Of a DNA stretch of 5,616 bases, positions 1 to 5,616 are shown piece by piece. Source of the DNA: Acidobacteriaceae bacterium. Its GTDB lineage: Bacteria; Acidobacteriota; Terriglobia; Terriglobales; Acidobacteriaceae. The notes beneath the pieces are model-generated. The model ran no database searches. It saw only the letters and a program-made list of their open reading frames with translations, and had not been told where the DNA came from. Within the stretch, counting starts at the first letter, position 1; each line of letters opens with the position of its first letter. The stretch lies in the NCBI GenBank assembly GCA_003152795.1, contig PMBA01000428.1, positions 1-5,616 of the forward strand. Reading direction: 5' to 3'. The translations under genes and the position numbers were made by a program.

Positions 1-2234
1 TTATTCCGGTTGGACGGCGTGAAGGGCAGAATCTCCACGAACTCCTCGCCCGTTTCGCCCGGCAGTTTCATGAGCACGAAGTTCGGCTGCATCGCCTGCG
101 TTACTTGCTGACCTCCCTCGCTCATTCCGACTTCGGTGGCGACCGTCCACAGATCCTCGCGGTTGTAGAACGCTTCCGCATCCGTCATGTGATACAGGCC
201 ATACGCTTCCGCCTGCAGCTTGAGCAGCAATTCGGGGTAGCGCACATGTTTGCGCAGCCCGGACGGCATCATGGCCGCATCCTTGAACAGGCTGGGAAAG
301 ATGCGCCGGTAGGCTGCGATGATCGGATCCTCCGGATCGAACACGTAAAACGTGGTCGTGCCATCGTAGGCGTCGACGACCACCTTAACGCTGTTCCGCA
401 TGTAGTTAATGAGATTCTGGTCGAGACGGTAATGGGTCGAGTAGGGATAGCTGTCTGAAACCGTGAACGCATCCATGATCCACGACAGCCGGCCATCGTC
501 GCCGAGCACAATGTAAGGATCTGGATCATAAGTAAGGAACGGCGCTAATGCCGATACGCGATCGTGCAGGTTGCGGCGCATCAGCAGCCGGCTATCCTGT
601 CTTACGTCATCGCTGAACGGCAGCTTGGCGAGGTCGTCGCGGTCGAGCGCGATAACGATGCGGCGCAGAAAACCGCCGAGCACGATGCCGCCGTTGCCTT
701 CGTACGACGTGAGGCTGTTGCTCGCGCCTTGCGGGTAATTGAATTCCTTCTGCCGCGTTTTCACGTAGACGTCGGTATTGGTCATCTCGCCAAAATAAAT
801 CTCCGGGCGCGTCACCGTCAGACTATGCACCGTGCTCTGGACCGGCATGTTGCTCAGCATCAGCGTGGGCAACCCTTCCGCCGTGAACCCATTGACCGGG
901 TTCATGGTAATGCCGTAGCCGTGTGTATAGATCAGCTTGTCGTTAATCCAGTTGCGGCTGCTCTCCGGGAGCTTGTCGACGTTTAGTTCGCGCGCCGCGA
1001 GCATCACCTCGCGAGTGGTGCCGTCAATGTCATAACGATCGATATCGATGTCGGGAAAGTCGTAGTAGGTGCGGATTTCCTGAATCTGGCGCAGCGTGTC
1101 CTGGAGCGCGCGCCAGTCCCACAGGCGGATGTTCTGAAGCGTCGCCTGATTGTTCGCCGGTTCGGCCGCGTCGACCGTCGTCTCGGCCGGAAACTCGCGC
1201 TGCGTGACCTGGTTCAATCCGTAGGCGCGCCGCGTCAACTCGGTGTTATAGACAATGTAGGGCTTCTCGCGAACCAGTTCGTTCGGTTTGACGATAAAGC
1301 TGCTGACGTACCAGGCGACTCCTTGAACGGCGATATAACAGACGGCGGCCGGAAGGATCGCCGCGACAAGCCAGCGCCCGCGTGGCACTCGGACTGCGTT
1401 GACGGCTGCGATCGCCGCGCCCAGAACCAGCGCCGCGCAGACGACGAGCATCCCGGTGAGCGTGACGTGCGCGTCCGTGTAGGTCACGCCTCCGAAAATC
1501 GTATGATCCTCGAGCAATAATTCAAACCGGCCGATATAAGCGCGTATCGCGACGATCAGCAACAGGAACGCTAGCGTGATCGAGAGCCCGCGCCACGGTA
1601 ACGCGGCGTATCGGCTGAGATGCCCGGAGAGCACGCGCGTTCCGCCCGTGATGAGGATGAAGAATACTGCCAGTAAGCAGGTGATCACGGCTAGCGTCAG
1701 CAGCCAGCCGGCGATGAGTTGCCACGCCGGCAGGGCGAACAGAAAAAAGTTCAGCGGCATGCCAAAAATCGGGTCGACAACGCCGCCGGTGGCGCGCGGG
1801 GCGTACCAGAAGAGCGCAAGCGTCGGCCATTCCACCATCATCCCGGCGCCGGTGGCGCCAGCGATGACCAGCGAAACACCGACCGCGATGAGGCGCAGGA
1901 CTGGTTCGACCGGGAGCTTCAACGGCTGTCCGCCGATAAAAATCGTATGGCCGCTTGGCAAGTCCGGGAGATGGGCCCGCTTCAACGCCAGGAATGATCC
2001 ATAGAGAATGACGAATGTGGCCGCCGCAAAAGCTGCGAAGATTCCCCATTGCAGGCTCAGTGTTTTCCAGAATACATCCCCGTAGCTGAGCGACCCAAAC
2101 CAGAGCACGTCCACGTAATACGACAGCGCGGTCCGACCGCCGAAAAAGATTCCGGCAAGGATGGCAAAAATGAGAAGAAAACGTCGGCGCCGCCGCGGCG
2201 GATGCGTCGGCGGCCAGTCAATGGACTCGGGCAT
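1..2234 (-). CDS. UPF0182 (COG1615) large integral membrane protein, 3' end cut by window edge
   Basis: A single open frame runs from an ATG at 2234 to the left edge: 744 complete codons with no stop. Family members are typically about 900-1000 residues, so roughly the last 150-250 are missing. The N-terminus is polybasic (five Arg at residues 14-18) and is followed by about seven predicted membrane segments, near residues 19-36, 60-83, 112-134, 162-197, 215-233, 258-280 and 288-311. A large, mostly polar domain follows. Family hallmarks are KPNELVREKPYIVYNTEL near 316, IQEIRTYYDFPDIDIDRY near 382-400, YTHGYGITMNPVN near 435 and RPEIYFGE near 476. An in-frame TAA six codons upstream and a GGAGT ribosome site fix the start. 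The biochemical function of UPF0182 is unknown to me, and the topology suggests a cell-membrane protein with a large extracytoplasmic domain. It is transcribed away from the redox operon, so no functional link is implied. Family assignment is confident; no function is claimed. Confidence 0.93.
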   Translation of the reverse strand, partial: MPESIDWPPTHPPRRRRRFLLIFAILAGIFFGGRTALSYYVDVLWFGSLSYGDVFWKTLSLQWGIFAAFAAATFVILYGSFLALKRAHLPDLPSGHTIFIGGQPLKLPVEPVLRLIAVGVSLVIAGATGAGMMVEWPTLALFWYAPRATGGVVDPIFGMPLNFFLFALPAWQLIAGWLLTLAVITCLLAVFFILITGGTRVLSGHLSRYAALPWRGLSITLAFLLLIVAIRAYIGRFELLLEDHTIFGGVTYTDAHVTLTGMLVVCAALVLGAAIAAVNAVRVPRGRWLVAAILPAAVCYIAVQGVAWYVSSFIVKPNELVREKPYIVYNTELTRRAYGLNQVTQREFPAETTVDAAEPANNQATLQNIRLWDWRALQDTLRQIQEIRTYYDFPDIDIDRYDIDGTTREVMLAARELNVDKLPESSRNWINDKLIYTHGYGITMNPVNGFTAEGLPTLMLSNMPVQSTVHSLTVTRPEIYFGEMTNTDVYVKTRQKEFNYPQGASNSLTSYEGNGGIVLGGFLRRIVIALDRDDLAKLPFSDDVRQDSRLLMRRNLHDRVSALAPFLTYDPDPYIVLGDDGRLSWIMDAFTVSDSYPYSTHYRLDQNLINYMRNSVKVVVDAYDGTTTFYVFDPEDPIIAAYRRIFPSLFKDAAMMPSGLRKHVRYPELLLKLQAEAYGLYHMTDAEAFYNREDLWTVATEVGMSEGGQQVTQAMQPNFVLMKLPGETGEEFVEILPFTPSNRN

Positions 2235-2495: not shown

Positions 2496-4538
2496 ATGGC
2501 TCATCAGCTCACCACCTGCACGTTCTGTGGAGTTGGATGTGGGCTTTATCTGGAGACCTCCGGCAACCAGATCGTGGGGGCCTATCCCAGTGTCTCCCAC
2601 CCCAGCAATCAAGGACGGATTTGCGTCCGCGGCTGGTACGTTCACGAGGTCGCCAGTTCGCCCGACCGTCTGAAACATCCTTTACTTCGCAAGAACGGCG
2701 AGTTGCAGGAAGTGAGCTGGGACGAGGCGCTGGGCTTCATTGCCGGGAAAATGAAGACGATCCGGGACGAGCACGGCCCGGATGCGATCGGCTTCTTGAA
2801 CTCGCCGCGCTGCTCCAACGAAGAATCGTATCTGCTGCAGAAATTTGCCCGCGCCGTTATCGGCACGAACAATGTGCATCACGGGACGGGCGTTTACTCC
2901 AACAACTCCATCAACGTCCTGCTGGACATGATCGGCATCCCGGCGAGCACGAACTCGATTGCGGAACTGGCACAGAGCCAGGTGATCGTGGTCGATGGCG
3001 TGGATCTTGCCAAACGCATGCCGACGATCGGCGGCGCCGTCATTCGCGCCAAGCTCAACGGCGCCCGCCTCATTGTGGTCGGTACCAGGCGTCACCGCGT
3101 CGCCGAAAGTGCCGACCTCTTTCTCCAAATCAAGCCAGGAACTGAAGCACTGCTCTACGGCGCGATCGCCAAGATCATTGTCGATCGCGGCCTCATGGAT
3201 CTGGGTTTCATCAAAGCACGTTGCCGCGACTACGAGGCTTTTCTCGCCACCATTTATGAATACGATCTGCTCCGCGTTGCCGAGAGCTGCGGCGTAGCAC
3301 CGCGCCTGATCGAAGCGGCTGCCATGGCTTACGGAGGCGCAAGTTCCGCCACGCTCATGTTTTCCGCCAGCATGGAAGAACGCAGCCGCGACAGTATCCG
3401 CGCCGTCGTGAATCTGGCGCTGTTGTCCGGCAATCTCGGCAAGCCCGGCGCTGGACTGTTCGCTCTCACCGAGCAAAATAACCTGCAGGGTGTGTGCGAC
3501 ATGGGGATGTTGCCGGATCGTCTGCCCGGCTACAGGCCCGTGACCGACGACCAGGCGCGCTCCGCCCTCGATGTCCTCTGGGGGGCCAGAATCCCTCCCG
3601 CGCCGGGGCTTGGATCTCGCGCCTTGCTGGCTCATCGCGGACAAGGCAAGGTCAAGGCGCTCTGGCTGTCGCGTTACGATCCCACCAATGCCGCGCTGCT
3701 CGGTGACGTAGCCAGCCAGCTTCGGCAGCTCGACTTGCTGGTCGTCCAGCACCTCTTCATGACGGAGTGCGGCAACTACGCCCATGTAGTCCTGCCGACG
3801 ACCGCTTTTGGCGAAGAGGAAGTCACGTTCACGAGCACGGACCGTCGGATTCAATTGGCGGAACGCGTGGTCAATCCGCCCTCGGGGCTGACCCCCGCGT
3901 GGGAACAGATCGCGCAGCTTGCCCGGCTGATGGGTGCAGATTGGAAATACACCTCAGCGCGCGACGTGATGGATGAGATCGGCCAGGTTGTCCCCTTCTA
4001 CAGCGGCGCAGACTACGAGAACCTGGCGCGCGACTACGGACGCCAATGGCCTTGTACCAAGGACCGCCCGCTGGGCACAAAATTCCTGTTCGCCGAGAAC
4101 CATTTTGCGGAGAAGCCGGAAGAACGGCCATTCAAGTTCGTCGCCGTTCCCAGGCCGCTTGCCCCGAAGGAAAATCCGAAAGAGTTTCCGCTCACGCTGG
4201 TGTTCGGAAACTCGCTTTACTACTGGAACCAGAATGTGCTGGTGCGGCACAGCGAGACCCTGAAACGCGAGTATCGCCAGTTGATGATCGACTATCCCGA
4301 CGGCTTCGTTGAGATTAATCCGGAAGATGCCAAGCAGTTCGGCATTCGCGACGGCAAGCGGATGCGGCTTTGCGCCGCGGCCGCGTCGGCGGCGGCAACG
4401 GCACGCATCACTTCCGAGGTCAGGACCGGAACCATCTTCGTCCCCCACTTCATGCGCGCAGTGGAACAGCAGATCCTCGGGTCCTCTGGCGACAGTCTCC
4501 GGCTGGTTCCGGTTCGGGTGGAGAAGGGAACGGCATGA
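2496..4538 (+). CDS. Formate dehydrogenase alpha-like molybdopterin oxidoreductase family protein lacking the FDH catalytic residues
   Basis: The product has 680 residues, close to E. coli FdhF (715), and no Tat or Sec signal, so it is likely cytoplasmic. The N-terminus has a [4Fe-4S] motif (C8, C11, C15, C43). FDH-family landmarks follow in order: VSWDEAL (73-79), QKFARAVIGTNNV (115-127), LQIKPGTEALL (210-220), GNLGKPGAG (312-320), QNNLQGVCDMG (327-337), VVLPTTAFGEEE (431-442) and a C-terminal beta-barrel-type domain from about 565. Compared with FdhF recalled from memory, the Sec/Cys ligand position is Tyr134, the adjacent His is Ser135, the active-site Arg is Thr325 and the Lys beside the cluster is Arg45. 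The usual DPR motif reads GTR (196-198). It is therefore unlikely to oxidise formate by the known mechanism. It may have a different substrate, or serve as a NuoG-like electron-transfer subunit. Its stop overlaps the next gene's ATG, suggesting a shared complex. Family membership is confident; function is unknown. Confidence 0.88.
   Translation: MAHQLTTCTFCGVGCGLYLETSGNQIVGAYPSVSHPSNQGRICVRGWYVHEVASSPDRLKHPLLRKNGELQEVSWDEALGFIAGKMKTIRDEHGPDAIGFLNSPRCSNEESYLLQKFARAVIGTNNVHHGTGVYSNNSINVLLDMIGIPASTNSIAELAQSQVIVVDGVDLAKRMPTIGGAVIRAKLNGARLIVVGTRRHRVAESADLFLQIKPGTEALLYGAIAKIIVDRGLMDLGFIKARCRDYEAFLATIYEYDLLRVAESCGVAPRLIEAAAMAYGGASSATLMFSASMEERSRDSIRAVVNLALLSGNLGKPGAGLFALTEQNNLQGVCDMGMLPDRLPGYRPVTDDQARSALDVLWGARIPPAPGLGSRALLAHRGQGKVKALWLSRYDPTNAALLGDVASQLRQLDLLVVQHLFMTECGNYAHVVLPTTAFGEEEVTFTSTDRRIQLAERVVNPPSGLTPAWEQIAQLARLMGADWKYTSARDVMDEIGQVVPFYSGADYENLARDYGRQWPCTKDRPLGTKFLFAENHFAEKPEERPFKFVAVPRPLAPKENPKEFPLTLVFGNSLYYWNQNVLVRHSETLKREYRQLMIDYPDGFVEINPEDAKQFGIRDGKRMRLCAAAASAAATARITSEVRTGTIFVPHFMRAVEQQILGSSGDSLRLVPVRVEKGTA
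4520..4538 (+). promoter_or_regulatory. Ribosome binding site and ATGA start/stop overlap joining the two operon genes
   Basis: GGAGAAGGGA (4520-4529) is a strong purine-rich site five bases before the ATG at 4535. That ATG overlaps the TGA (4536-4538) of the upstream gene. This arrangement supports translational coupling and fixes the start of the second gene. Confidence 0.85.
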
Positions 4539-5616
4539 AGGCTCGCATCCTGGACCGCAATGACGTGCTGAAGATCGTGGACCTGCTGCGGCAGCAGGGC
4601 TATGAGGTGATCGCTCCATTCCGCGAGCGCGGGCGGGACACCTTCTTCGATCCCGTGACCGACCAGAACCGCGATCGGATTCAGATTCATCTACCCAATC
4701 CCTATTACCCGCCGAAGCGTTATGTATTTCCGCCGATTGAGCGCTTGCTGAAGATCGAGCGTTTGAATGGCGATCTGCGCATTGAGCCCACGTACGACGT
4801 TCAGAAGCGCGCAATCTTCGGCATTCGTTCGTGCGACGTGGCCGGTATCTACCACCTTGACCGCTTCTACCTGGGCCGCGAATTTCCCGACATCTACTAT
4901 CGGAACCATCGCAACAACCTTTTTCTCGTGAACGTGGCCTGCACCGATCCCGACCTGGACATCGGCGAAGAGTGTTTCTGCATGTGCACGGATACCGGGC
5001 CCGCGGCCCGCGACCATTTCGACTTGCAGCTCTTCGATTTGCAACGCTTGGGTCTTGGGAATGGCCTCGGGGATGAATTCATGGCGGTAGCCGGCACGCC
5101 CGCCGGCGAAGCTCTGTTTGTCAGTCCAATTTTCCGGCAAGCTTCTGCGGCGCATGTGGCCCGGCGGCGCGGCATCTTGGAAGAAGTTCGAAAACGCTTC
5201 AAGCCGAACACCACCAGCTGGTTTTCTGCCGCTATTCAGGCCGTATCGCGCGGAGAGATTCCGGAAGAAACCTGGGACGCGATCGGCAACCGCTGTCTGG
5301 AGTGCGGGGGCTGTACTTACGTTTGTCCGGCCTGCACCTGCTTCACGGTGACAGATCGGCCCGTCGAACCAACGGGTGTCGAACGCCTCCGTATCTGGGA
5401 TTCTTGCGCATTAAGCGGCTTCACGCGCATGGCCGGCGGGTTCAATCCGCGGCGCGCGGTGCACGATCGCCGCAACCGGCGTTTCTTTCGCAAACTCGCG
5501 CACTACTTTATCGAGCGGGAACTCTCAATGGCGTGCGTCGGCTGCGGCCGCTGCGCGGCAGTATGTCATGGCGACATCGGCATGCCGAGCGTGGTGGAGA
5601 TAATCCGCCATTCGGC
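4535..5616 (+). CDS. HydB/AsrA-type 4Fe-4S dicluster electron-transfer subunit, 3' end cut by window edge
   Basis: 360 complete codons are visible and the frame is still open at the right edge. HydB of Pyrococcus sulfhydrogenase is of similar size, so probably only a short tail is missing. The first ~240 residues form the family's N-terminal domain, with FGIRSCDVAGIYHLDRFYL (95-113) and CFC (147-149) preceding TGP. A ferredoxin-type domain follows with two cluster motifs: C254-x2-C257-x2-C260-x3-C264, continuing as CPACTCF with C267 and C269, and C334-x2-C337-x2-C340-x3-C344. Between them lies WDSCALSGFTRMAGGFNPR (288-306), typical of HydB/AsrA. There is no signal peptide or membrane segment, so it is cytoplasmic. 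In known complexes this subunit relays electrons between a catalytic subunit and an FAD/NAD(P)-binding partner (HydG or AsrB). Here it is translationally coupled to an FDH-like gene, so it probably passes electrons to or from that protein. The choice between HydB and AsrA cannot be made without the downstream genes. Confidence 0.88.
   Translation, partial: MKARILDRNDVLKIVDLLRQQGYEVIAPFRERGRDTFFDPVTDQNRDRIQIHLPNPYYPPKRYVFPPIERLLKIERLNGDLRIEPTYDVQKRAIFGIRSCDVAGIYHLDRFYLGREFPDIYYRNHRNNLFLVNVACTDPDLDIGEECFCMCTDTGPAARDHFDLQLFDLQRLGLGNGLGDEFMAVAGTPAGEALFVSPIFRQASAAHVARRRGILEEVRKRFKPNTTSWFSAAIQAVSRGEIPEETWDAIGNRCLECGGCTYVCPACTCFTVTDRPVEPTGVERLRIWDSCALSGFTRMAGGFNPRRAVHDRRNRRFFRKLAHYFIERELSMACVGCGRCAAVCHGDIGMPSVVEIIRHS

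Follow-up and report, generated by a model that had tools for sequence, protein, structure and literature searches.

What does a protein of the formate dehydrogenase (FDH) family do once the residues around its metal are gone? The question is raised by the window analyzed here, a stretch of 5,616 nucleotides that forms a whole contig (PMBA01000428.1, our C467) of an Acidobacteriaceae assembly (GCA_003152795.1; 475 contigs, 4.72 Mb, 82% complete), and in particular by its gene mopB* (2496..4538, plus strand), which encodes a 680-residue FDH-alpha-like protein predicted to be devoid of the molybdenum cofactor (Moco). We consider it quite probable that MopB* is an FDH-derived iron-sulfur (Fe-S) subunit that has lost its molybdenum-site residues and that, likely without Moco, joins a predicted ion-pumping hydrogenase to a predicted NAD(P)H flavoprotein as an electron relay or docking piece.

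The mopB* frame is uninterrupted up to the stop at 4536-4538, and its start was set at the ATG at 2496 (MAHQLTTC, 680 codons) because relatives share the same N-terminal beginning. The FDH-alpha model TIGR01591 is its best NCBIfam match (560.8 bits, below the curated cut-off of 666.25), against 124.7 bits for the NuoG model. Three Pfam domains are matched in all, the first starting at residue 3; they include the Molybdopterin domain PF00384 (171.6 bits, cut-off 24), which places the protein in the MopB superfamily, and it has the FDH fold. Judged by these profiles and the alignments below, MopB* is a member of the FDH family that falls short of the FDH-alpha cut-off and lacks both the metal ligand and the active-site Arg.

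Residues at the former molybdenum site

Alignments with two solved FDHs (9t1s_L and 7qv7_S) and with E. coli FdhF (L078) agree at the three positions that matter most. Tyr134 (TAC, 2895..2897; this and all further mopB* sites are on the plus strand) stands at the Sec/Cys molybdenum-ligand position (FdhF Sec140), Ser135 (TCC, 2898..2900) at that of His141, and Thr325 (codon 3468-3470) at that of Arg333, as part of a Thr325-Glu326 pair replacing Arg333-Gly334 (3468..3473). The assignments made in a preliminary description of this DNA are thereby borne out, and its further statement that all hallmark catalytic residues are replaced holds for the three sites, but not for His141 as a universal hallmark. 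In a comparison set of 39 FDHs (the 30 best-scoring from the window's phylum, 8 campylobacterial and FdhF), position 140 is Cys or Sec and position 333 is Arg in all 39, with position 141 being His in 26 and Gln in 13.

The same residues were followed through the clade to which MopB* belongs, using 154 rows that comprise the 120 best-scoring of 3197 database matches and 34 genome copies (the window and 33 further loci), some genes being counted twice. None of the 154 rows displays Cys or Sec at the ligand position: 151 have Tyr and three have Phe (119 and 1 among the database matches, 32 and 2 among the genome copies). On this alignment, the replacement of the ligand by Tyr is far from a chance event, and the close homologues share the state seen in the window. 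FdhF Lys44, Cys136, Arg138 and Gly334 are likewise replaced in every row, with Lys44 giving way to Arg in all 154 (Arg45 in the window, 2628..2630). The residue that follows the Tyr is variable (Cys 74, Ser 64, Ala 7, Gly 4, Arg 3, Thr 1, Val 1); therefore, the Ser135 position is not a conserved ligand. The earlier suggestion that a shift of one residue could turn Ser135 into a molybdenum ligand finds no support in view of this variability.

What the clade has retained are the cysteines for an Fe-S cluster. Three of the four predicted [4Fe-4S] ligands, Cys8, Cys11 and Cys15 (2517..2540), align with FdhF C8, C11 and C15, and the fourth, Cys43 (2622..2624), falls in the FdhF C42 column; all four are conserved in 34/34 genome copies and in 114 or 115 of the 120 best-scoring proteins, the remaining rows not covering that part.

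The loss extends well beyond the three sites first noted. Of 59 columns conserved at ≥95% in the 39 FDHs, the 34 genome copies keep 34 (i.e., show the FDH residue in ≥90% of the copies) and lose 25, 10 of which are partly kept. Besides the ligand, the changes include Lys44 to Arg, Cys136 and Arg138 to Gly, Asn176 to Asp, Thr300 to Glu and Gly334 to Glu, each in 34/34 copies, and FdhF His181, Arg333, Asp478, Arg581 and Asn662 are also among the columns not kept; at column 662 two alignments disagree (mostly Gln versus mostly Arg), which leaves the clade residue there uncertain. The Asp at the Asn176 site (Asp170 in the window, 3003..3005) is found in 118 of the 120 database proteins and in both NuoGs that were compared. 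By the same measure, the window sequence keeps 37 of the 59 columns, E. coli NuoG 27, the NuoG of the window's own genome 35, NapA 45 and FdnG 50. The FdhF report, in the portion available to us, depicts a network of hydrogen bonds that links Lys44, Asp179 and Ser180 to the Fe-S cluster and one of the pterins (PMC12176258); the Asp179 and Ser180 positions also differ in the clade. A structural model of MopB* does not resolve the pocket, and its low-confidence loops count as evidence in neither direction.

The evidence nonetheless supports the earlier supposition that the protein is maintained and has taken on a new role. Across six mopB* pairs, the ratio of nonsynonymous to synonymous substitution rates (dN/dS) is 0.059-0.118, from which we conclude that mopB* is under purifying selection and maintained; the ratios of the two pairs containing the window are rough because their dS of about 1.5 is near saturation. 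The clade is monophyletic (SH-aLRT support 100) on a long stem. Decay into a pseudogene is ruled out by the open frame together with these ratios. Among 100 genomes of the window's family, at least six have mopB*, whole or in pieces, at 65-100% identity among the matches listed, in which the next near-full-length proteins are ≤34% identical. Of 60 related loci in total, 37 belong to the clade and come from Acidobacteria/Terriglobia, Verrucomicrobia, Methylomirabilota and Omnitrophota, plus a locus that bears the label Chthonomonadales and a few that are called just 'bacterium'. The other 23, from Sulfurimonas, Sulfurovum and related organisms, are 24-28% identical; all eight of them that were aligned are Cys/His/Arg FDHs and were therefore placed in the comparison set.

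Cofactor genes in the carrier genomes

We searched 34 genomes, the window's own and those of the 33 loci whose copies are complete or almost so, for MoaC, MobA, MoeA, HypD and PF00384; the four clade loci L037, L039, L047 and L064, whose copies are partial, are not part of this survey. MoaC is present in 18 genomes and MoeA in 19. MoaC was not found in 16, MoeA in 15 and neither of them in 14, with two further genomes having MoeA without a MoaC match and one MoaC without a MoeA match. HypD is present in 30 of the 34 and in 12 of the 14 without MoaC and MoeA, so that assembly gaps do not easily account for the missing genes. Apart from MopB*, these 14 genomes contain 16 PF00384 genes, all of which were scanned. 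Fourteen match NuoG (TIGR01973; one above the cut-off, 12 below it at 419-447 bits and a fragment at 57 bits) and two match Qrc-type proteins, which we would call ActB-like on account of the Fe-S half fused to them and, in the case of L141, of TIGR04519. Nqo3/NuoG and ActB are recorded as families without the cofactor (PMC10100899, as far as its available text goes; ActB structure in PMC5928083). MobA (TIGR02665) is a weak marker, since none of the 34 genomes passes its cut-off and all 14 controls give matches; its matches in the 14 genomes reach at most 32.8 bits, and the cofactor argument rests on MoaC and MoeA instead.

Given the loss of the ligand, the 14 of 34 genomes in which neither MoaC nor MoeA was found and the NuoG-, ActB- or Qrc-like character of the other MopB genes there, MopB* probably carries no molybdenum cofactor. 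The new molybdenum chemistry that the preliminary description entertained is unlikely for the same reason.

Several observations weigh against this and are best taken together. The window's own genome is one of the 18 with MoaC, and MoeA and a MobA match of 100 bits are found in it too; thus, for the window's species the absence of the cofactor rests on orthology with relatives. The 14 genomes are metagenome assemblies, and a completeness figure is at hand for one of the 34 only. The window contig ends within beta, the gene next to mopB*, and the hydrogenase genes of its own genome, of which there are two copies on other contigs, cannot be joined to it. FdhF with the K44R change alone retained 7.1% activity in E. 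coli (PMC12176258, in the part available). Finally, some enzymes with the bis-molybdopterin guanine dinucleotide (bis-MGD) cofactor work without a protein ligand (IdrA and its clade, in the accessible portion of PMC10100899), and Tyr alone is therefore no proof of cofactor loss.

The IdrA precedent opens a different reading, in which MopB* retains bis-MGD without a cysteine ligand and performs a new chemistry with Tyr134 or Ser135 close to the metal. It would fit the preserved fold, the near-invariance of the Tyr (151/154 rows) and the 18 genomes with MoaC, but it has to contend with the 14 genomes lacking MoaC and MoeA matches, whose other MopB genes are only NuoG- and ActB/Qrc-like, and with a pocket in which the site after the Tyr accepts Ala, Gly, Val and Arg, Phe takes the place of Tyr in three rows, FdhF Arg138, Asn176, His181, Asp478, Arg581 and Asn662 are mostly not kept and the pterin-network positions differ as well. 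We regard it as quite unlikely.

The hydrogenase gene cluster and its possible electron donor

With the substrate site gone, the jobs that remain for a Moco-free MopB* are to hold an arm of a complex and perhaps to relay electrons, and the gene neighborhoods of its relatives indicate which complex this may be. Across the clade, mopB* is followed by beta, gamma, a protease gene, hyfB, hycE, hycD, hyfH and hycG, an order that is unbroken in 35/35 loci with at least two of the genes. All nine are present in 27 of the 37 loci, most of the ten incomplete ones stopping at a contig edge (beta and gamma are each matched in 35 loci, protease in 34, hyfB in 35, hycE and hycD each in 32, hyfH in 31 and hycG in 28). 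In the window, the cluster is visible as far as beta (4535..5616, plus strand), which encodes an AsrA/HydB-like iron-sulfur subunit truncated by the contig end (NF040833, 142.7 bits, cut-off 750; TIGR02910, 119.3 bits, cut-off 323.15; PF17179, 97.4 bits, cut-off 27) and whose start shares an ATGA overlap with the mopB* stop (4535..4538, plus strand). NCBIfam models applied to locus L009 place gamma, which has NAD-binding and Fe-S domains there, near HydG/ShyC/AsrB and identify the small gene as a hydrogenase maturation protease type (TIGR00072, 89 bits, cut-off 47); the remaining genes match Hyf/Hyc/Nuo subunits, mostly under the cut-offs.

The large subunit retains the residues of a nickel site. 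RICGICGCVH is present in 32/32 hycE matches and DPCFSCTDR in 31/32, the single miss being a cut match, and a C-terminal tail beyond the second motif, seen in L009 and in the window genome's own copy, is consistent with the protease gene in the cluster. Its best match among solved structures is HycE of formate hydrogenlyase (425 bits, versus 245 for the complex I C/D subunit and 235 for Mbh). By these sequence features, the clusters of relatives hold a group 4 [NiFe]-hydrogenase whose nickel motifs are intact. The window's own genome has hydrogenase genes on contigs C201 (part of hyfB to hycG; L073), where hycE has both CxxC nickel motifs, and C436 (part of hycE to hycG; L074), i.e., two copies of the cluster, yet one mopB* was found.

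We propose that the nine cluster products assemble into one complex, in which, going by homology, electrons would pass between NAD(P)H, gamma with its flavin and Fe-S centers, the clusters of beta, those of the HyfH- and HycG-like subunits and the NiFe site. Gamma would exchange electrons with NAD(P) in one direction or the other, and the HyfB/HycD-like membrane part would couple the transfer to ion movement. MopB* would occupy the place that FdhF or NuoG takes in related complexes, where it would support the peripheral arm and might pass electrons on through its single [4Fe-4S] cluster; its role would thus be NuoG-like, both role and donor being inferred.

Could the cluster instead encode a working formate hydrogenlyase, with formate oxidized by another residue or subunit? 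The large subunit is 39-40% identical to E. coli HycE and TIGR01591 is the best model for MopB*, and the E. coli complex (FdhF-HycBCDEFG) resembles the clade cluster in joining an FDH-fold subunit to a group 4 hydrogenase. Unlike it, the clade has lost the active-site residues (the ligand, Arg333 and Gly334 being replaced throughout), has AsrA/HydB- and HydG/AsrB-like subunits and lacks a recognizable HycB, the E. coli protein having no match (E ≤ 1e-3) in 40 sequences. Moreover, no protein passed the FDH-alpha cut-off in the nine clade genomes tested. The nearest, a separate FDH match in the genome of L009 (G341, contig C13; L124), lies just under it at 653 bits; it contains an in-frame TGA and is likely a true selenocysteine FDH located elsewhere in that genome. 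We hold a formate hydrogenlyase to be very unlikely; if MopB* is a Moco-free relay or docking part, the clusters would not make hydrogen from formate.

A closer competitor retains the Moco-free complex and changes its donor, to ferredoxin as in Mbh/Ech-like systems or to ferredoxin together with NAD(P)H, with MopB* serving mainly as a docking surface. HdrC- and HdrB-like genes lie directly upstream of mopB* in L011, L012, L013 and L020 (families scanned in L013) and are possibly an extra electron-carrying module; an Mbh-like role has also been proposed for a similar cluster (PMC6349859, in its accessible text). To set against this, gamma is matched in 35/37 loci, with a NAD-binding domain in L009, the one scanned, and the Hdr genes occur in four of 37 loci, though several loci offer little upstream DNA. 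We give a ferredoxin donor a rather small chance, though it stays a serious alternative.

That similar, unclassified cluster was described in 2019 from Saganbacteria RX5A as an 'enigmatic' hydrogenase of group 4 accompanied by asrA, asrB and a molybdopterin oxidoreductase, the latter being an FDH by hidden Markov models and not by phylogeny, and the hydrogenase having its nearest relatives in Zixibacteria and Omnitrophica (PMC6349859). The published description additionally lists cooF and suggests an Mbh-like function, and a lost site or missing cofactor genes go unmentioned in the part of its text available to us; going by that description, it is very likely a cluster of the same kind. The NADP-dependent Fdh3 of Thermococcus onnurineus also has the gene for its FDH large subunit in one cluster with genes for NAD(P)-binding and Fe-S proteins, but it is active, contains tungsten and keeps Cys-His-Arg, and the available portion of its report lists no hydrogenase gene in the cluster (PMC8965080). 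Group 4/Hyf complexes of Acidithiobacillus and Nitrospira are likewise hydrogenase-type gene clusters; in contrast to the clade, which keeps both motifs, they are reported, in the accessible parts of the papers, as non-hydrogenase by HydDB or without a nickel motif (PMC7735108; PMC12542776). The literature search turned up no paper on the MopB* protein itself, subscription papers being mostly outside its reach.

Some loci depart from the common arrangement. A gap of about 2 kb separates hyfB from hycE in L012, L013, L020 and L025; in L012 and L020 it contains an open reading frame of some 640 codons, whose product by eye resembles a second antiporter-like subunit, L013 and L025 being less clear. 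In L022 (about 13095-13583), gamma is matched over 158 of 281 residues in one piece and the protease was not found, which may reflect a gene lesion, a fusion or faulty assembly. On the other side of mopB*, the window contains a divergent gene of the UPF0182 family (3-2234, minus strand; PF03699, 772 bits), whose 3′ end lies beyond the contig.

A second NuoG?

NuoG/Nqo3 of complex I invites direct comparison, as it too has an FDH-like fold with a lost molybdenum site, shares the Asp at the FdhF Asn176 position in the two NuoGs compared and works in a complex with NuoB/D/H/I-like subunits. NuoG has N-terminal Fe-S domains ahead of its MopB part, a layout with which the profile matches of the NuoG-like genes in the clade genomes agree. 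In MopB*, the Pfam scan matched no NuoG-type N-terminal domains; its partners are AsrA/HydB- and HydG/AsrB-like rather than NuoEF, and the NuoD counterpart in its clusters, unlike that of complex I, retains the nickel motifs. ActB of alternative complex III and FhcB are further MopB-superfamily proteins without a Mo/W cofactor (PMC10100899, in its available text; PMC5928083 for ActB), but they belong to different branches of the superfamily and have different partners.

The sequence comparisons point both ways as to whether the clade represents a separate loss of the cofactor or one shared with NuoG. In a first tree with long branches, a split (SH-aLRT 96) divides the clade plus two NuoGs from the other 41 rows, and the accessible text of a superfamily survey, in which the families without cofactor are Nqo3, ActB and FhcB, assigns ligand-less sequences of the cytoplasmic FDH set to Nqo3 (PMC10100899). 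With the trait columns removed, however, the clade falls among FDHs and NapA, apart from NuoG (fork support 81), and the higher score of TIGR01591 over the NuoG model and the unmatched N-terminal domains point the same way. The approximately unbiased test rejects neither arrangement (clade with NuoG, p 0.166; clade with FDHs, p 0.207). We give a rather small chance to the clade being a branch of NuoG/Nqo3. Tentatively, and with a confidence that stays a little below even, we propose that MopB* is a second, independently arisen 'NuoG', i.e., an FDH stripped of its molybdenum that forms the arm of a NAD(P)H-linked, ion-pumping hydrogenase, the H2-reacting counterpart of complex I.

MopB-fold subunits without molybdenum are already known, and their encoding alongside a hydrogenase is probably the variant that the clade adds. 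In databases, proteins of the clade are called, for example, 'formate dehydrogenase major subunit' or 'formate dehydrogenase (coenzyme F420) alpha subunit', and a paper on peatland Acidobacteria postulates, in the part available, formate as a donor for group 4 hydrogenases (PMC6018796), which may be other ones than those of the clade. If MopB* is the Moco-free subunit that we favor, the partner of hydrogen production or uptake in its carriers would be NAD(P)H (or ferredoxin) instead of formate. It would also display the step thought to have yielded the NuoG of complex I, namely the loss of the metal from an FDH while the arm is retained, here within a complex whose reaction with H2 persists. 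The cofactor-free Nqo3, ActB and FhcB have been linked to aerobic metabolism (PMC10100899, in the text accessible to us); MopB*, unlike them, accompanies a hydrogenase. Should it prove to be a second 'NuoG', this would be found in bacteria of soil, bog, lake and groundwater, many of which apparently make no molybdenum cofactor.
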